A stretch of 64,000 nucleotides of DNA, taken from contig NZ_LRPB01000047.1 in assembly GCF_001592945.1 (NCBI RefSeq), forward strand, positions 124,001 to 188,000. The letters run 5' to 3'. Origin of the DNA: Roseivirga seohaensis (GTDB lineage: Bacteria > Bacteroidota > Bacteroidia > Cytophagales > Cyclobacteriaceae). This document shows, piece after piece, positions 6,945 to 14,323 of this stretch. The translations under genes were made by a program, and so were the position numbers. A model generated the notes under the pieces. It made no database searches and was not told the origin of the DNA. It saw nothing but the letters and a program-made list of their open reading frames with translations. Positions within the stretch are counted from its first letter, which is position 1; each line of letters starts with the position of its first letter.

Positions 6945-7658
6945 ATGAAACACACTATGACACGTATTTTATTTTCAGCCTTTCTTTTTTCCTTGTCATT
7001 CTTGCTCTCAGCGCAATATGGAAATGGGCGATACACTTTCGTTTTTCTGAATACTAACCCGAACAAAGCTGAAATATCTAAGGCTGCTGTAGACTCTTTA
7101 CAAACTGGGCATATGAATAATATCAACCGCTTGGTTAAGGAGAGGAAGATGATTGCGGCTGGACCTTTTTTTACGGGCGGGGGTGTTTTCTTATTTGATA
7201 CTAATGTGGAAGAAACAAAAGCCATTCTCAATTCAGACCCTGCCATTGCTGCCGATCGCTATATTTTGGAGGTTTTCGCTGTTGACCCAATTCCGCACAA
7301 TGCTGTAAATAAAACACTCTGTACACTTTGGGATAAAAATGAAGCCGATGTAGAAATGGCAATGAACTATTATTTTGTTCGGTACAAACCTAATAAGGAA
7401 AATGAAGACATTGCTGCTGTTAAAACCAACCGTTTCACTGAAAATTTAATCAAATCCGTTTCCAAGAAAAATGGGCAGAATACCATCATAGGCGCTTTAA
7501 ATCTCAATGATAATGAAGGCCAATTGATTTTTTATCAGTCTGATATTGAAGGAGGAATGGAAGCTGATTTTGCCGCCCATGAGCTGGTGAAAAAGGGTTT
7601 AATGACTTATGAGCACAGTCAGATTTATTTCCCTAAAGGTGTGTTTTGTGAAAATTGA
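6945..7658 (+). CDS. YciI-like domain protein, secreted
   Basis: Protein of 237 residues with a signal peptide (FSAFLFSLSFLLSAQ). Residues about 25-115 resemble a YCII domain: YTFVFLNTNP, GHMNNINRLVKERKMIAAGPFF and DPAIAADRYILEVFAVD. YciI proteins are small alpha-beta barrels with a conserved His-Asp pair; here the His is in GHMNN and the Asp in NSDPAIAADR. Residues 120-237 look like a second, diverged copy (MNYYFVRYKPNK, YEHSQIYFPKG). Function is unknown. The start could also be the Met five codons in. It ends 51 bases before the ilv leader, so read-through into the ilv leader is possible. Confidence 0.6.
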   Translation: MKHTMTRILFSAFLFSLSFLLSAQYGNGRYTFVFLNTNPNKAEISKAAVDSLQTGHMNNINRLVKERKMIAAGPFFTGGGVFLFDTNVEETKAILNSDPAIAADRYILEVFAVDPIPHNAVNKTLCTLWDKNEADVEMAMNYYFVRYKPNKENEDIAAVKTNRFTENLIKSVSKKNGQNTIIGALNLNDNEGQLIFYQSDIEGGMEADFAAHELVKKGLMTYEHSQIYFPKGVFCEN

Positions 7659-7709
7659 ATTTAAAAATTCTTTGATTAGAAAAACAATCTACTTTCCTTT
7701 GGGTCAACA

Positions 7710-7763
7710 ATGAGAACAAACACTATTATTATCACCCAAATTATTACTGTCGTGAAAACATGA
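7710..7763 (+). CDS. ilv leader peptide 1
   Basis: Short reading frame ATG to TGA encoding MRTNTIIITQIITVVKT. Twelve of its 17 residues are Thr (5), Ile (5) or Val (2), with runs of three and two Ile codons and a Val pair. It lies 33 bases before a strong terminator and upstream of ilvE, as expected for an attenuation leader. Threonine is not a product of the operon but is the precursor of isoleucine, so the peptide may sense both supplies. Confidence 0.85.
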   Translation: MRTNTIIITQIITVVKT

Positions 7764-7795
7764 TGGGAGGGGATGGTGTAGTTTAAAATATCGAG

Positions 7796-7824
7796 AGCCT
7801 TTCCCAACCGGAAAGGCTTTTTTT
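7796..7824 (+). terminator. Attenuator 1 terminator
   Basis: Perfect nine-pair stem AGCCTTTCC / GGAAAGGCT (7796-7804 and 7810-7818) with the loop CAACC and a run of seven T (7818-7824). It is an intrinsic terminator in front of, rather than behind, the ilv genes. A further small hairpin TCCTGAA-cttgt-TTCAGGA at 7841-7859 lies between the two attenuators. Confidence 0.9.
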
Positions 7825-7888
7825 ATGTCCTCAAGTGTCTTCCTGAACTTGTTTCAGGATATGTTAGAATTTAAAGAATTAAGATTAG

Positions 7889-7945
7889 ATGTTAAAGTAC
7901 ACAGCCATTATTACAGTAGTCATTATTACCACCCAGACGGGGTGA
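7889..7945 (+). CDS. ilv leader peptide 2
   Basis: Short reading frame ATG to TGA encoding MLKYTAIITVVIITTQTG. Eleven of its 18 residues are Thr (5), Ile (4) or Val (2), arranged as Ile-Ile-Thr-Val-Val-Ile-Ile-Thr-Thr. The order resembles leader 1 without being an exact copy. Its stop codon lies inside the antiterminator sequence GGGTGAAA, which ties translation of this peptide directly to the RNA switch. Confidence 0.85.
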   Translation: MLKYTAIITVVIITTQTG

Positions 7946-7973
7946 AATAGGATACTATTGTCAATGCATTAGA

Positions 7974-8005
7974 AGCCTTTTTCACCCAGTGAGAAAGGCT
8001 TTTTT
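7974..8005 (+). terminator. Attenuator 2 terminator
   Basis: Twelve-base arms AGCCTTTTTCAC / GTGAGAAAGGCT (7974-7985 and 7989-8000) with one mismatch, a three-base loop and a run of six T (8000-8005). It shares the AGCCTTT/AAAGGCT base with terminator 1, which suggests the two units arose by duplication. Confidence 0.9.
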
Positions 8006-8192
8006 AATGTCCAAATGTCAAAATCAGTTGCTAAAAACGGTCAGAAAGAAGGATGTTGAAGTTGTAAGCTGAATTAATGTAAAGTATTGATTTACAGTAT
8101 TTATCAAAAACAAAGAGAGTGCATTGAGATTGTAGAAGCAGAGAAATTCATAATCAAAGTAAAAAATAGCCAAGATAATTTTAAACCATAAA

Positions 8193-9086
8193 ATGATGTA
8201 TTACGGATCAAATACCACAGTTTTTTTAGATGGCCAATGGCTGAAAGCCTCAGAGGCCAGCGCTAGTTTATATAGTCAAAGTATGCACTACGGAAGTGGT
8301 GTCTTTGAAGGTATTCGTGCTTATGATGTACACGGATCGCCTGCTGTATTCAAAGCGGAAGCACACTATGAAAGGCTATTGACCTCAGCAGCTTCAATGC
8401 ATATTCCTTGTAATTATTCGGTTGAGGAATTAACGGAGCTGACTTATGAATTATTAGAGAGAAATCACCTGACAGATGCCTATATCCGTCCCTTAATTTA
8501 TTTGGGTGAGAACATGACACTGGGCACCGTTGAGGAATCTCATCTGTTTCTTTGTGCTTGGGAATGGGGTAAATATTTAGGTGATAAGAGCCTAAATGTA
8601 ATGGTCTCTTCTTACGAAAGACCAAACCCTCGTTCGGTGCCAGTTGCCGCCAAAGTTACAGGGCATTATACCAATTCCATTTTAGCCACTACCGAAGCCA
8701 AACGCAAAGGTTTTGATGAGGCTTTACTTCTGGATGAGAATGGATCTGTAGCAGAGGGTAGTGGAGCGAATTTCTTCTTTGAACAAGATAAAGTGCTCTA
8801 CACACCGCCATTGGGGAATATTCTTCCAGGAATAACAAGAGAAACAGCCATGGACATAGCTAGAGATTTAGGCTATGAGGTGGTTGAAGCCTATTTCCCC
8901 CCAGAGAAAGTAAAAGGAACCGATGGCGCTTTCTTTACAGGAACTGCAGTAGAAGTTGCTGGAATTGGTCTATTGGATGGGAACCCTTTTCGCTTGCCTT
9001 GGGAAGAAACCATTGGTTATCAAGTGGCCAAAGTTTATCAAAACTTAGTACGTCAGTCTTCAAAAACACAATTAGTAAATACCTGA
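8193..9086 (+). CDS. ilvE: Branched-chain amino acid aminotransferase
   Basis: PLP-dependent fold-type IV aminotransferase of 297 residues that moves the amino group between glutamate and the 2-oxo acids of valine, isoleucine and leucine. It shows [15 protein letters not shown] near residue 30, the PLP lysine in [11 protein letters not shown] (about residue 153), the EGSGANFF cofactor-phosphate region, and [10 protein letters not shown] near the C terminus. The length is normal for the family. Two ATGs in a row offer alternative starts one codon apart. It is the first structural gene of the ilv operon, 187 bases after the second attenuator terminator. Its TGA overlaps the ilvD start (ATGA-type coupling). 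Confidence 0.93.
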
Positions 9087-10759
9087 TGGAACTGAATAAA
9101 TATAGTAAGCGACTTACGCAAGATGAAACTCAACCAGCTTCGCAAGCCATGCTTTACGGTGTGGGTTTGTCGGAAGCGGACATGAAAAAAGCGCAAGTGG
9201 GAATTGTGAGCATGGGTTATGATGGCAACACTTGCAATATGCACTTGAATCAACTGGCTCAACAAGTGAAAGTAAGCGTTTGGGACAATGATTTGGTAGG
9301 CCTCATTTATCATACCATTGGAGTGAGTGACGGCATTGCAAACGGCACCGAAGGCATGCGCTATTCGCTGGTTTCCAGAGAAATAATTGCCGATTCCATC
9401 GAAGCAGTGGCTGGTGCGCATTATTACGATGCCATAATTGCAGTAGCTGGCTGTGACAAAAACATGCCGGGCTCGGTGATTGCCATGGCCAGATTGAACC
9501 GCCCCTCGATTATGCTTTATGGAGGCACCATTGCTTCGGGCTGCTACAAAGACAAGAAGCTGAATATTGTTTCTTCATTTGAAGCATTGGGAGAACGTTT
9601 TTCAGGGAATATATCAGACGAAGACTACAAAGGCGTAATCAAAAATTCATGTCCCGGAGCAGGTGCTTGTGGTGGAATGTATACGGCCAACACCATGTCG
9701 TCTGCCATAGAAGCTTTAGGAATGTCATTACCTTTCAGCTCTTCAAACCCTGCGGTAAGTGATGTAAAAAATCAGGAATGCGAGGCCATTGGCAAAGCCA
9801 TTAAGAACCTTCTCGAACTGGATTTGAAACCTAAAGACATCATGACCAAAAAATCATTTGAAAATGCCATTCGGGTGGTGATTGTTTTGGGCGGATCAAC
9901 CAATGCCGTAATGCATTTATTGGCCATAGCTAAGAGCATTGATGTTGATTTGACACTGGCTGATTTCCAAAGACTATCTGATTCTACTCCGCTTTTGGGT
10001 GACTTAAAACCTAGTGGTAAATATCTGATGGAAGACCTTTTCCAAGTAGGTGGAGTACCTGCAGTCATGAAATATATGCTTGAAAAAGGTATGCTTCATG
10101 GAGATTGCATGACAGTAACGGGCAAAACCGTAGCAGAGAACTTGGCCGATGTTCACTCATTGAGTTCAGGTCAGCAAGTAATCCGTCCAACTGAAAATCC
10201 AATAAAGCCCCAAGGCCACTTACAGATGCTTTTCGGGAATCTGGCTGAAGAAGGTGCTGTAGCGAAAATCACAGGGAAAGAGGGTGAAAGATTTGAAGGT
10301 AAAGCCATTGTTTTCGATAACGAATTTTTGGCGATTCAAGGAATTAGGCGAGGAAAAGTAAAAGCGGGGCATGTAGTGGTTATTCGGTACGAAGGACCAA
10401 AAGGCGGCCCGGGAATGCCTGAAATGCTTAAGCCAACTGCAGCCATTATGGGCGCTGGCTTGGGTAATTCTGTGGCATTGATTACCGATGGCCGATTTTC
10501 CGGAGGAAGTCATGGTTTTGTGGTAGGGCACGTTACCCCAGAAGCTCAAGAAGGCGGTACCATTGCCGTGGTTCGAGATGGCGACCCAATTACTATCGAT
10601 GCCATTCAGAATAGAATTTCATTGGACATTCCTTCCGAAGAAATTACCCAAAGGAAAGCGGAATGGAAAGCCCCGGCCTTAAAAGTGAGCCGGGGAGCCT
10701 TGTATAAATATGCCAAAGCCGTAGCCTCTGCATCAGAAGGCTGCATAACCGATCAATGA
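9086..10759 (+). CDS. ilvD: Dihydroxy-acid dehydratase
   Basis: Enzyme of 557 residues that dehydrates 2,3-dihydroxy-isovalerate and 2,3-dihydroxy-3-methylvalerate to the 2-oxo acids used by IlvE. Iron-sulphur ligands are visible at Cys50 (NTCNMH), Cys123 (AGCDKNMPG) and Cys195 ([16 protein letters not shown]), the pattern of the IlvD/EDD family. The C-terminal swivel domain contains [20 protein letters not shown]. The reading frame is open 29 codons further upstream, but that stretch lies inside ilvE. The ATG at 9086, overlapping the ilvE stop, gives the usual family N terminus. One base separates it from ilvB. Confidence 0.95.
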
Positions 10760-10760
10760 T

Positions 10761-12488
10761 ATGTATTTAGAAGCTACACTTACTCCACCAGTTAAGGAAA
10801 CAATGCGTACTTCGGGCGCAGATGCAGTGCTCAGGTCATTTATTGCAGAAGAAGTTGATTTGATTTTTGGCTATCCTGGCGGTGCAATTATGCCCGTTTA
10901 TGATGCCCTTTATCATTATCAAGAACAAGTTAGACATGTCTTAACTAGGCATGAGCAAGGTGCCATTCATGCAGCTCAAGGTTATGCCCGCGTAACAGGA
11001 AAAGTAGGTGTGGTGCTCGCCACCTCTGGTCCTGGCGCTACCAATTTGATTACTGGAATTGCAGATGCGATGATTGATTCTACTCCCTTGGTATGTATTA
11101 CCGGGCAAGTTGGGTCGCATTTATTGGGCACAGATGCTTTTCAAGAAATTGACATCATCAGTATTTCCATGCCAGCCACCAAATGGAACTATCAAGTAAC
11201 TAAAGCCGAACAATTGCCAGAAGCACTTTCACGTGCCTTTTACATTGCTCGCTCTGGTCGATCTGGCCCAGTTTTGATTGACATTACCAAGGATGCGCAA
11301 TTCGAAATGTTTGATTTCGCGTATCGTAAATGCAAGCAGATTAGGAGCTATACACCTGTTCCAGCTTTGAACTTAAAACAAGTAGAAGATGCTGCTGACT
11401 TGATTAATTCAGCCAAGAAGCCATTAGTGGTTTTTGGACAGGGGGTGATTTTGGGCAATGCTGAAAATGAATTTAAACAACTGATTGAAAAAGCCAATTT
11501 ACCTGCTGCATCTACACTTTTAGGACTTTCCGCGCTTCCGTCAGACCATCCTTTGCATGTAGGAATGTTGGGAATGCACGGCAATTATGCTCCGAATGTG
11601 CTGACTAATGAATGTGATGTTTTGATTGCCATAGGAATGCGCTTTGACGACCGCGTTACTGGTGACCTAAACCGTTATGCCAAGCAAGCCAAGGTGATTC
11701 ATTTTGATATAGATCCAGCCGAAATCAATAAGAATGTGCAGGCCGATATAGCTGTACTGGGCGATTGCAAGGAAAGTTTACAAGCGCTAATTCCTCTGGT
11801 ATATGAGCGCTCTCATCAAGGTTGGTTGAAAGAATTCGAAGCATTGACAGGAGTGGAGCAAACCAAAGTCATCGAACATGATTTAAGACCTACTTCTGGC
11901 CCAATTTCTATGGGAGAAGTAATTCATCAGGTGAACTTACAAACCGATGGCAATGCGGTTTTGGTGACAGATGTGGGGCAACATCAAATGGTAGCCACCA
12001 GGTATACCCATTTCAAACAGAGTAAAAGCAATATCACTTCTGGTGGTTTAGGAACAATGGGTTTCTGTTTACCAGCGGCTTTGGGTGCTAAACTGGGTGT
12101 GCCAGAACGTGAGGTTATTGCGGTTATTGGCGATGGTGGTTTTCAAATGACCATTCAAGAATTGGGAACCATCTTTCAGACCAAAGCGGCTGTTAAAATT
12201 ATCATTCTAAATAACTCTTTCTTGGGCATGGTGCGCCAATGGCAACAGCTCTTCTTCGACAAACGATATTCTTCTACCGAAATGGAAAACCCTGATTTTG
12301 TGGCCATAGCCAAAGGTTATGGGATTGATGGAAAGTCCATTTCTGAAAGAGATGACTTGAAAACTGCGGTCATGGAAATGCTATCACATAATGGAAGTTA
12401 TTTGTTAGAGGTACATGTGGGCAAAGAAGACAATGTATTTCCGATGGTGCCCACGGGCGCTTCGGTGTCAGAAATCAGATTAGAATAA
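10761..12488 (+). CDS. ilvB: Acetolactate synthase large (catalytic) subunit
   Basis: Thiamine-diphosphate enzyme of 575 residues that condenses pyruvate with pyruvate or 2-oxobutyrate, the first common step to valine and isoleucine. The TPP-activating glutamate is Glu65 in TRHEQGAIHAAQGYAR. The FAD-binding middle domain includes GMLGMHGNYAPN and MRFDDRVTG. The magnesium/TPP motif GDGGFQMTIQEL followed by ILNNSFLGMVRQWQ is in the C-terminal domain. The length matches the family. Its partner ilvN starts one base after the stop codon. Confidence 0.95.
   Translation: MYLEATLTPPVKETMRTSGADAVLRSFIAEEVDLIFGYPGGAIMPVYDALYHYQEQVRHVLTRHEQGAIHAAQGYARVTGKVGVVLATSGPGATNLITGIADAMIDSTPLVCITGQVGSHLLGTDAFQEIDIISISMPATKWNYQVTKAEQLPEALSRAFYIARSGRSGPVLIDITKDAQFEMFDFAYRKCKQIRSYTPVPALNLKQVEDAADLINSAKKPLVVFGQGVILGNAENEFKQLIEKANLPAASTLLGLSALPSDHPLHVGMLGMHGNYAPNVLTNECDVLIAIGMRFDDRVTGDLNRYAKQAKVIHFDIDPAEINKNVQADIAVLGDCKESLQALIPLVYERSHQGWLKEFEALTGVEQTKVIEHDLRPTSGPISMGEVIHQVNLQTDGNAVLVTDVGQHQMVATRYTHFKQSKSNITSGGLGTMGFCLPAALGAKLGVPEREVIAVIGDGGFQMTIQELGTIFQTKAAVKIIILNNSFLGMVRQWQQLFFDKRYSSTEMENPDFVAIAKGYGIDGKSISERDDLKTAVMEMLSHNGSYLLEVHVGKEDNVFPMVPTGASVSEIRLE
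10857..10859 (+). other. Start-site note for ilvB
   Basis: The first ATG of ilvB is at 10761, directly after the ilvD stop; a second in-frame Met occurs 15 codons later (VKETMRTSG), just before the conserved SGADAVLRSF block. The extra N-terminal tail is not conserved in the family as I know it, so the second Met is a possible alternative start. Tight spacing to ilvD favours the first. Confidence 0.25.
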
Positions 12489-12489
12489 T

Positions 12490-12993
12490 ATGAAACAAGC
12501 ATATACACTTTCAATTTTCTCAGAAAACAGTGTTGGGTTATTGAACCGCATCACTTCTATACTGACCAGACGGCATTTAAATATTGATAGTATTAATAGC
12601 TCTGAATCAGAGAGTTCAGGGATTTATCGGTTTACCATTGTAGTAAAAACCACCGAGGCTCAGGTGAAGAAACTCGTGCTTCAACTTGAAAAGCAAGTGG
12701 AGGTAATGAAGGCGGTGTACCATACCGATAGTGATACGGTATTTCAAGAAATCGCTTTGTATAAAATATCCACAAGGTCGATTTCAGAAGGAAATCTGGT
12801 GGAAAAGCTCATTCGGGATAACAATGCTCGGATACTTTCTGTGGAATCGGATTTCATGATAATTGAGAAAACAGGGCATAAAGAAGAAACGCAGGAATTG
12901 CTTGATTTTCTAAGTCCTTATGGTGTGCTGGAGTTTGTCCGTTCAGGGCGAGTTTCAGTAACTAAGCCGATGGGGGAGTTGGAAGGGATTTAG
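12490..12993 (+). CDS. ilvN: Acetolactate synthase small (regulatory) subunit
   Basis: Protein of 167 residues with an N-terminal ACT domain (TLSIFSENSVGLLNRITSILTRRHLNIDSINSS), the valine-binding regulatory module of acetolactate synthase. The second half (YKISTRSISEGNLVEKLIRDNNARILSVESDF... and ETQELLDFLSPYGVLEFVRSGR) is the usual C-terminal domain. It binds the IlvB dimer and confers feedback inhibition by valine. The gene starts one base after ilvB and is followed by a 253-base gap full of palindromic repeats before ilvC. Confidence 0.93.
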   Translation: MKQAYTLSIFSENSVGLLNRITSILTRRHLNIDSINSSESESSGIYRFTIVVKTTEAQVKKLVLQLEKQVEVMKAVYHTDSDTVFQEIALYKISTRSISEGNLVEKLIRDNNARILSVESDFMIIEKTGHKEETQELLDFLSPYGVLEFVRSGRVSVTKPMGELEGI

Positions 12994-13246
12994 ATTGAGC
13001 GATGGGATTGCTTCGTCATCAAGCTTTTATCAAAGCTTAATTTCTCGCAATGACGGTTCGAAGGGACTGTGTACTGAACCATCACTGCGAGTTCTTTTTC
13101 GACCAAAGGGAGATAAAGAGCGCGGCAGTCTCGACAGATTGCCCCAGTCGTAACCTTGTCTATCGACAAGTCTACTTCCTCGCAATGACGGGCATAGAAG
13201 TAGGAGAAAGATTTAAACAAAATTAGAAACACTAAAAACAATAATA
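12994..13246. repeat. Palindromic repeat pair between ilvN and ilvC
   Basis: No gene is supported in this gap. It holds two copies of one module: a hairpin with a TATC loop followed shortly by CTCGCAATGACGG. The first hairpin is AAGCTTT-TATC-AAAGCTT at 13021-13038, with the box at 13044-13056. The second is CTTGTC-TATC-GACAAG at 13155-13170, with the box at 13179-13191. The stems differ in sequence but keep the fold, as expected of an element under structural selection. Related CGTCATTGCGA pieces occur at 6482-6495 and in other gaps. It interrupts the ilv operon without obvious terminator features. Confidence 0.7.
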
Positions 13247-14323
13247 ATGGCAAAGATCAACTTTGGCGGGGTAGAAGAAAACGTAGTGACCCGTAATGAA
13301 TTTCCGCTAGCAAAAGCACAAGAAGTATTATCGAACGAAACGGTTGCGGTAATTGGTTATGGCGTTCAAGGCCCTGGGCAATCGCTCAATTTGAAAGATA
13401 ATGGCATTAATGTAATTGTTGGGCAAAGGAAGGAATCCAAAACATGGGATAAAGCCGTGGCTGATGGTTGGGTGCCGGGAGAAACACTTTTTCCAATTGA
13501 GGAAGCGCTAGAACGAGGGACAATTATTTGCTATTTGCTTTCTGATGCTGCTCAAATTGCAGTTTGGCCTACCGTGAAAAAGCACCTCACTGCTGGTAAA
13601 ATGCTTTATTTCTCTCATGGTTTTGGAGTGGCCTATAGCGAAAAAACGGGCATTGTTCCTCCGTCAGATGTTGATGTAGCTTTGGTAGCACCAAAGGGTT
13701 CTGGTACTTCATTGCGCTCACTTTTTGTAGAAGGAAAAGGATTGAATTCTTCCTTCGCTATTCACCAAGACGCTACCGGTAAAGCCAGAGATCGCGTCAT
13801 TGCTTTGGGTATTGCAGTGGGTTCGGGTTACCTTTTCGAAACCACTTTTTACAAAGAAGTAACCTCTGACCTTACGGGCGAAAGAGGTACTTTGATGGGC
13901 GCCATTCAAGGTTTATTCCAAGCTCAATATGAAGTACTTCGAGCGAATGGACATTCACCCTCTGAGGCCTTCAACGAAACGGTAGAAGAAGCAACGCAAT
14001 CCCTCTATCCGCTTATTGCTGATAATGGCATGGATTGGATGTATGCCAATTGCTCTACTACCGCACAACGTGGCGCTTTAGACTGGAAAGATAAATTCTA
14101 TGCTGCTACAAAACCTGTTTTTGAGCAGTTATACAAGTCCGTTACGGATGGCGTAGAAGCCAAAAACTCCATTGACTCTAACTCTCAGTCAGATTATCGT
14201 GAGAAGCTTGAGGTAGAATTGGAAGCTATTCGCAATTCTGAAATGTGGCAAGCTGGCAGGGCGGTAAGAGGTTTAAGACCTGAAAATGTACCTGTAGCAA
14301 AACCAGAAGAGGAATTGGTTTAG
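13247..14323 (+). CDS. ilvC: Ketol-acid reductoisomerase
   Basis: Protein of 358 residues that isomerises and reduces acetolactate and acetohydroxybutyrate with NAD(P)H. The N-terminal Rossmann domain has the dinucleotide motif GYGVQGPGQSLNLKDNG, followed by the specificity loop VGQRKESKTWDKA. The C-terminal knotted domain carries SDLTGERGTLMGAIQGLFQAQYEV and the acidic metal ligands in NETVEEATQSLYPLI. The family is identified with confidence; cofactor preference cannot be read safely, although the Arg/Lys/Ser loop favours NADPH. It is the last ilv gene, with possible separate expression because of the repeat-filled gap upstream. Confidence 0.93.
   Translation: MAKINFGGVEENVVTRNEFPLAKAQEVLSNETVAVIGYGVQGPGQSLNLKDNGINVIVGQRKESKTWDKAVADGWVPGETLFPIEEALERGTIICYLLSDAAQIAVWPTVKKHLTAGKMLYFSHGFGVAYSEKTGIVPPSDVDVALVAPKGSGTSLRSLFVEGKGLNSSFAIHQDATGKARDRVIALGIAVGSGYLFETTFYKEVTSDLTGERGTLMGAIQGLFQAQYEVLRANGHSPSEAFNETVEEATQSLYPLIADNGMDWMYANCSTTAQRGALDWKDKFYAATKPVFEQLYKSVTDGVEAKNSIDSNSQSDYREKLEVELEAIRNSEMWQAGRAVRGLRPENVPVAKPEEELV

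Follow-up and report, generated by a model that had tools for sequence, protein, structure and literature searches.

Ribosome-mediated transcription attenuators of the ilv, leu and thr operons are described in Escherichia coli and Salmonella typhimurium (PMC1183508), and ilv leader attenuators have also been found in Actinobacteria (PMC1262725), in Listeria, as Rli60 (PMC5864092), and at ilvBNC of Corynebacterium (PMC11857589, PMC10272879). Such leaders are therefore not confined to the Proteobacteria, the group in which the original prediction for the present locus placed the well-known single ilv leaders. As described in these sources, the known ilv, leu and thr systems each combine one leader, rich in residues of the end product, with one attenuator composed of antiterminator and terminator hairpins. 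Within the Bacteroidota, attenuation by leader peptides has been recorded for amino-acid operons of Flavobacterium psychrophilum (PMC9723704), and short ORFs in 5′ UTRs are reported from this species and from Bacteroides thetaiotaomicron (PMC7366714); the main texts of these two papers have no word starting with "ilv", and their passages on such leaders mention no tandem pair.

Paired regulatory units are known from other leaders. The Salmonella mgtCBR leader mRNA carries two leader ORFs, mgtM and mgtP, which are translated and which both affect transcription of the operon; they respond to different signals, ATP and proline, and the arrangement has been called a singular example of tandem attenuators with different signals (PMC3641672). 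Tandem riboswitches for the same ligand (PMC9481103) and tandem T-boxes (PMC12452182) place two sensor-terminator units under one signal, with a steeper response expected, and for the riboswitches multiplied decisions have been proposed and termed pseudo-cooperative and "digital" (PMC9481103). The rimP-leader of several Gammaproteobacteria also contains two tandem terminators, the upstream one with a possible antiterminator, and its description includes no leader peptides (PMC2965389).

The locus considered here lies on the + strand of a 64,000-nucleotide stretch of Roseivirga seohaensis DNA, all of which is referred to as the window. The operon genes ilvE, ilvD, ilvB, ilvN and ilvC (8193-14323) each have an NCBIfam match above the curated cut-off, and IlvE shares 97% identity with its R. 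ehrenbergii counterpart. The 534-base gap before ilvE (7659-8192) contains two leader ORFs, each followed by a predicted terminator that is mutually exclusive with an antiterminator, as the original prediction had proposed. Leader ORF 1 (7710-7763; MRTNTIIITQIITVVKT) has a core that is conserved in the nine aligned genomes, and leader ORF 2 (7889-7945; MLKYTAIITVVIITTQTG) contains six consecutive codons that are invariant in 10 genomes; both were found by direct reading and by a caller. Unit 1 comprises an alternative hairpin (7723-7781, pairing 7723-7737 with 7769-7781 and 7747-7754 with 7759-7767), an antiterminator (7764-7806) in which 7764-7772 pairs with 7798-7806 through nine pairs, two of them G-U, and a predicted intrinsic terminator (7793-7824) in which 7793-7804 pairs with 7810-7821 ahead of a T tract. 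In unit 2, the corresponding elements are an alternative hairpin (7913-7961, pairing 7913-7921 with 7950-7961 and 7926-7930 with 7941-7945), an antiterminator (7940-7987) with eight Watson-Crick pairs between 7940-7947 and 7980-7987, and a predicted intrinsic terminator (7971-8006), in which 7971-7985 pairs with 7989-8003 before its own T tract. The alternative hairpins come from RNAalifold consensus structures and the unit 1 antiterminator from direct reading and the caller; terminator 1 was recovered by a terminator scan, the caller and RNAalifold, and terminator 2 by the caller and RNAalifold. Both antiterminator pairings put forward in the original prediction are present, and T-tailed terminators closing the units are predicted at 7793-7821 and 7971-8003.

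This anatomy is most readily interpreted as two classical ribosome-mediated transcription attenuators acting in series on a single transcript, a reading to which we assign a probability of about 85%. Most of the tested sequence features that define a ribosome-mediated attenuator are found here: a leader ORF with control codons is present, and a terminator between leader and first gene is predicted. Like the known ilv, leu and thr attenuators, the locus precedes branched-chain genes, but it has two units rather than one, Leu is nearly absent from its leaders and Thr is prominent. It shares with mgtCBR the presence of two leader ORFs in one leader mRNA but differs in that the same amino acids are predicted to act on both, each unit having its own predicted terminator; both cores contain Ile, Thr and Val, which speaks against the different signals that characterize mgtCBR. 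The arrangement of two sensor-terminator units under one signal resembles that of the tandem riboswitches and T-boxes, although there the sensor is an aptamer or a tRNA-binding RNA and here it would be a ribosome translating a leader ORF. The rimP-leader differs from the Roseivirga locus in that leader peptides are not part of its description. No Rfam family reaches its gathering score in the window, the T-box included, and T-box is also absent from the 13 matches (E≤10) listed for 7600-8250; the best sub-threshold match by E-value is Thr_leader (RF00506), which covers 7716-7826 in unit 1 with 23.5 bits against a gathering score of 55 bits. No earlier report of tandem ilv leader attenuators was found among the open-access papers listed, and tandem leader attenuators with the same signal, their recurrence within a phylum and the change from Leu to Thr seem to be new.

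In the proposed mechanism, RNA polymerase would initiate upstream of leader 1. With ample charged Ile-, Val- and perhaps Thr-tRNA, a ribosome would reach the leader 1 stop codon and mask the adjoining antiterminator arm, allowing terminator 1 to fold; stalling within the Ile/Thr/Val core would instead leave this arm free to pair with the 5′ arm of the terminator, and polymerase would proceed. A second, identical decision would follow at leader 2, whose core is IITVVIIT, and terminator 2. Since the two cores share their residues, the arrangement is most simply read as two serial decisions on the same signal, with readthrough into ilvEDBNC being the product of two readthrough probabilities, and a pair reading the same amino acids would be expected to lower the basal level and to steepen the response relative to a single unit. 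Leader translation, termination, the acting amino acids, the promoter and the multiplication are what we infer from this arrangement.

Several comparisons indicate how far these elements exceed chance. Relative to dinucleotide shuffles, the sequence that starts ahead of the leader and runs as far as the T tract has a folding z of −3.23 for unit 1 and −5.67 for unit 2, and without the leader these values are −4.60 for unit 2 and only −1.42 for unit 1. The + strand terminator scan listed terminator 1 only, and its count for the region (2) is close to the shuffle mean of 1.9. A strict caller, requiring an Ile/Val/Leu/Thr-rich ATG ORF, a terminator and an antiterminator, was applied to 151 distinct stretches preceding ilvE and reports at least one unit in 116 of them and two units in 26; among 755 shuffles of these stretches, two gave one unit and none gave two. 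When the antiterminator is dropped, the counts become 125 and 30 of 151, with one unit in 6 of 1510 shuffles. The antiterminator criterion by itself adds little, since 64% of shuffled spacers reach its threshold; in 97 of 116 units from outside the genus, the 5′ arm of the antiterminator starts before the leader stop codon has ended, versus 166 of 371 shuffled spacers that attain the same pairing score. The case for both units is therefore one of leader and terminator combined, together with sequence conservation. Elsewhere in the same genome, no other attenuator was found with 1500-base flanks at the loci of homoserine dehydrogenase, a leuA-like gene, a second weak leuA and eight PALP-family genes, the sole call being an implausible Leu-rich ORF (L176). 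The leuA-like gene falls below the cut-off of its family and the probable ilvA was assigned by reading among the eight PALP-family genes; the upstream stretches of these two were additionally inspected by eye. Model R1, built on unit 2, recovers just the two units from this genome at E≤0.01 (strict filters, eight candidates scored).

Among 19 genomes of the genus, that of R. seohaensis included, this IlvE (E≤1e-80) occurs in 10 and the IlvD of the operon in 17. Of the 17 genomes with ilvD, 10 (again counting R. seohaensis) carry both units in front of the operon. One of these lacks this ilvE and nonetheless has both units upstream of ilvD (G017, locus L196), which indicates that the units go with the operon rather than with ilvE. 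Among the other seven, just one unit is present in G015, G009 shows only unit 2 on a contig that stops 403 bases short of ilvE, and in five (G003, G005, G007, G012, G014) the caller found no unit within 1500 bases upstream of ilvD. The five genomes of the genus that keep ilvD but have neither this ilvE (E≤1e-80) nor an attenuator call are represented by loci L203, L205, L206, L207 and L198. A 21-base core pattern of unit 2, allowing up to two mismatches, occurs exactly once in each of 11 of the 19 genomes. About 480 bases upstream of ilvD at L195, where no attenuator was called, there is a hairpin, GGCCTTCTCGTTTCCGGGAAGGCC, within which the terminator stem-loop of unit 1 in L003 recurs as its reverse complement.

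The original prediction had proposed leader conservation and covarying stems in related genomes as its support, and both are seen: besides the retention of the pair in these genomes, the helices of both units covary. From alignments of nine unit 1 and 10 unit 2 sequences, RNAalifold, run without a supplied structure, returned for each unit a terminator and an alternative hairpin that absorbs the 5′ arm of the antiterminator. In the unit 1 structure, 94.0% of cells are paired (42-60% in slid versions) and 13 cells contain a double-sided change as compared with 4.4 in shuffles; in that of unit 2, the values are 97.4% (49-61% in slid versions) and 6 versus 2.1. The covariation score of either structure is matched by 0 of 500 shuffles, and because the shuffles disregard relatedness, the covariation figures are supports rather than probabilities. 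Double-sided changes affect four pairs of the alternative hairpin in unit 1. In unit 2 they are confined to three pairs of the terminator, and the alternative hairpin has an invariant leader arm facing a variable opposite arm, with 95.7% of cells of its first helix remaining paired. The unit 2 antiterminator is paired in 96.3% of cells (24-68% when slid), its covariation score is equalled by 1 of 500 shuffles, and one of its pairs is G-C in 7 and A-U in 3 of the 10 genomes; its two pairs with double-sided change are equalled by 249 of 500 shuffles. Further pair types do not exceed shuffles for unit 1, unit 2 or the unit 2 antiterminator. The register of the unit 1 antiterminator varies across genomes.

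The proposed coupling to translation was modelled by folding transcripts that end before the 3′ arm of the terminator, with a ribosome mask of chosen size shifted codon by codon. For unit 2 of the window, upstream sequence sequesters 13 terminator-arm bases at every A-site position from Ile7 to Ile13, and one base at the stop codon. In all 10 genomes, unit 2 holds 11-17 bases as long as the A site is within the core and has not passed the second Ile of VVII, and at the stop codon 1-7 bases are held in the other nine. In seven of nine genomes, unit 1 holds 9-11 bases while the core is being read and 1-6 once the stop codon is reached, the exceptions being L007, which fails (11 bases held at the stop), and L077, which is weak (seven). 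The codons at which sequestration drops come immediately after the conserved core, and a modelled ribosome at the leader stop covers the antiterminator 5′ arm in 10 of 10 genomes for unit 2 and seven of nine for unit 1. Ribosome-free RNA also largely sequesters the terminator arm (8.4 and 12.8 bases in the window), so that equilibrium folding does not reproduce a protective role of the alternative hairpin. Sequence and prediction together yield the anatomies of both units, their conservation and covariation, and the modelled masking of the unit 2 arm by a ribosome at the stop codon.

The greater regularity of unit 2 raises the alternative that only one attenuator, probably unit 2, works, the other unit being either an alternative copy or one in decay. 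The unit 2 leader is indeed far better conserved than that of unit 1, the ribosome-position test is clean for unit 2 and less so for unit 1, and G015 gets by with one unit. In a decaying copy, however, covariation would be unexpected, and it is unit 1 that has the larger number of double-sided changed cells; a leader 1 with an Ile/Thr/Val core is moreover present in every one of the 10 tandem genomes, and we consider this alternative improbable. It is also improbable that unit 2 has a promoter of its own in the spacer, in which case the units would stand in parallel on two transcripts. Measured from the end of the terminator 1 stem to the longest ATG frame of leader 2, the Roseivirga spacer is 51-175 bases long, which is enough for a promoter, but the consensus match before unit 2 is equalled by at least 130 of 300 shuffles in nine of 10 genomes (L076 is borderline, at 46). 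In 15 of 16 tandem loci outside the genus the spacer is at most 30 bases, measured to the longest ATG frame of leader 2, the true start possibly being further in for some; so short a spacer could hardly accommodate another promoter, which speaks for serial transcription (the remaining spacer, at L080, is 65 bases).

The promoter consensus of Bacteroidota includes a −33 part. Before unit 1 there is a promoter-like site at 7671-7701, with TTTG at 7671-7674, a 19-base spacer and TTCCTTTG at 7694-7701, that may be compared with the −33/−7 type; TAnnTTTG is the −7 box of flavobacteria (PMC9723704). The site agrees at nine of 10 consensus positions and is weak in that 30 of 300 shuffles do equally well; the corresponding counts are 17-30 across the window, L001, L002 and L007, and 131-193 at the other five loci. 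Between unit 2 and ilvE lies an AT-rich conserved stretch (8043-8192) with two TGTA boxes 68 bases apart, TTGAT..ACA between them and ATAAgTTTAAA near the start codon. The TGTA pair recurs at a distance of 66-68 bases in 13 of 19 aligned rows (loci of the genus and L081), the other six having no exact pair. No consensus RNA fold was obtained for this stretch, which is possibly promoter or operator DNA. A promoter here would bypass both units, and it could be that the main promoter is situated within 8043-8192 and that the attenuators control a minor transcript only. Conservation of the stretch across the genus, and in part even where both attenuators are absent and ilvD comes next, accords with this. 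No clear TAnnTTTG box is seen in it by eye, however, and the strong constraint on the two units farther upstream suggests that these are of importance; we consider a main promoter in this position unlikely.

Under the preferred reading of serial attenuation, the leader codons would specify the signal. The leader 2 core codons ACA GTA GTC ATT ATT ACC and the terminal GGG TGA are identical in all 10 genomes. By comparison, ilvE of the same genomes keeps one codon in only two of 149 columns with an invariant amino acid (Met and Trp excluded) and has no adjacent pair of invariant codons. Most of the invariant leader 2 bases fall in paired arms of the alternative hairpin, so this codon freeze may reflect RNA pairing; a second possible reason is a need for particular control codons, and attenuator theory does require a specific choice among synonymous codons (PMC1183508). 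The prominence of Thr noted in the original prediction is borne out: the Thr content is 18.8% in the leaders of unit 1 and 23.5% in those of unit 2, compared with 5.8% in the 130 leaders from outside Roseivirga and 5.7% in seven genes of the window; for Leu the values are 0.6% and 2.8%, compared with 11.0% in the leaders from outside. The highest Thr values elsewhere are 20% (L035) and 19% (L081), and the Thr signature is thus real and, within this sample, nearly limited to Roseivirga. The idea that separate amino acids grade the two units, by contrast, finds no counterpart in the conserved cores, which share one set of Ile, Thr and Val. The invariant codons and the Thr residues may themselves be a matter of RNA pairing rather than of Thr sensing, in which case the operon would sense Ile and Val only. 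Both invariant Thr codons of unit 2 (ACA and ACC) sit in paired arms, and L077 has Ser in place of a Thr of the unit 1 core; on the other side, the low Thr content of leaders elsewhere in the phylum, obtained by a similar search, implies that such a structure does not in general need Thr. We regard this possibility as a serious contender, at somewhat less than even odds.

Comparable pairs exist beyond the genus. The survey covers 151 distinct stretches of up to 900 bases, some shorter, upstream of relatives of IlvE, and includes eight far rows, most without a Bacteroidota label; it is tied to IlvE, which at E≤1e-60 occurs in only 31 of 392 genomes of a phylum-wide draw. Some of the single calls among the 116 loci with a unit are doubtful, for instance L061, a row labelled Planctomycetales. 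Five false tandem calls, in which the first ORF looks coding, were set aside by judgement (L123, L124, L126, L130, L132), leaving 25 tandem loci, nine from Roseivirga and 16 others; three further loci that appear tandem by eye despite a unit missed by the caller were then added (L017, L025, L087). None of the counts includes the further unit noticed in L021 or the stretch in L082 that resembles a second unit but has no ATG start, so tandem pairs are undercounted and the changes counted on a tree set no bound. A quick IlvE tree of 110 rows carries 26 two-unit and 72 one-unit rows, with 12 rows without a call excluded from counting. The one- or two-unit label changes 11 times on it, or 9-10 times without doubtful rows, a figure that missed units inflate and that does not separate gain from loss; in 50 label shuffles the mean is 22.9 and the minimum 18. 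On this sequence evidence, tandem pairs are clustered yet spread over several clades. The tandem pair in Bacteroidota that the original prediction could not place therefore stands as a pair but is not unique, tandem pairs being found in other lineages of the phylum too, and their scatter suggests that doubling of the sensor is a repeated evolutionary solution.

The original prediction saw in a shared AGCCTTT stem base a hint that the Roseivirga pair arose by duplication, but such stem bases prove to be common: AGCCTT occurs in 32 and AGCC..GGCT in 57 of 130 attenuator terminators outside the genus, and these motifs are present in none of seven other terminator-like hairpins of the window. Likeness between the units was also rejected as a sign of duplication, as it does not exceed that of unrelated units; the similarity of unit 1 to unit 2 ranks 18-183 of 262 over nine loci, the best being 18 at L005. 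That the units are no more alike than foreign ones indicates that the pair is old relative to the genus. A hit of model R1 on unit 1 was likewise not accepted as demonstrating descent of unit 1 from unit 2, its 47.9 bits being surpassed by some foreign units (up to 68.2). A recent duplication of a whole attenuator is clear from sequence at L107, where nearly identical tandem leaders, MKTNSNIIIISIIIRSFE and MKTNMNIIIISIIIRSFE, precede ilvE with a similarity above that of all 296 foreign comparisons. In L110/L112 and L120/L129, orthologous units score 176-204 and the two units within one locus 28-55, a pattern showing that units, once diverged, are inherited separately.

Tentatively, and with rather more doubt than confidence, these observations can be drawn together in a scenario in which doubling of the same attenuator is recurrent at Bacteroidota ilv operons, by duplication or re-invention, and is kept as a steep, low-leak switch, Roseivirga having retuned its leaders from Leu/Ile/Val to Thr/Ile/Val and so reading Thr, the precursor of Ile. 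If true, tandem leader attenuators with the same signal would be a ribosome-based counterpart of the pseudo-cooperative tandem riboswitches. With no unit, one unit, two diverged units and two nearly identical units all occurring naturally, the gain in steepness can be measured directly, and the codon freeze in unit 2 allows the theory of required synonymous codons (PMC1183508) to be tested. The survey also suggests that attenuation of branched-chain synthesis is common in Bacteroidota, a subject that few of the open-access papers found touch upon.

Some minor features were observed among the surveyed loci. A contig labelled as a Gammaproteobacteria MAG (L037) encodes an IlvE 55% identical to that of the window and has an attenuator call, MNLILIIVVIIILLPMR; the label is probably a binning error. 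An Rfam search of six relatives gave nothing except a SAM-II riboswitch, above its gathering score, near the ilvE locus of Aureisphaera galaxeae (L017:1627-1685, − strand). At five related loci upstream of ilvE (L021, L025, L026, L027, L059), the first leader has Leu-Tyr ahead of its Ile/Val run, as in LYIIIIIQT and LYIIVIIHP.
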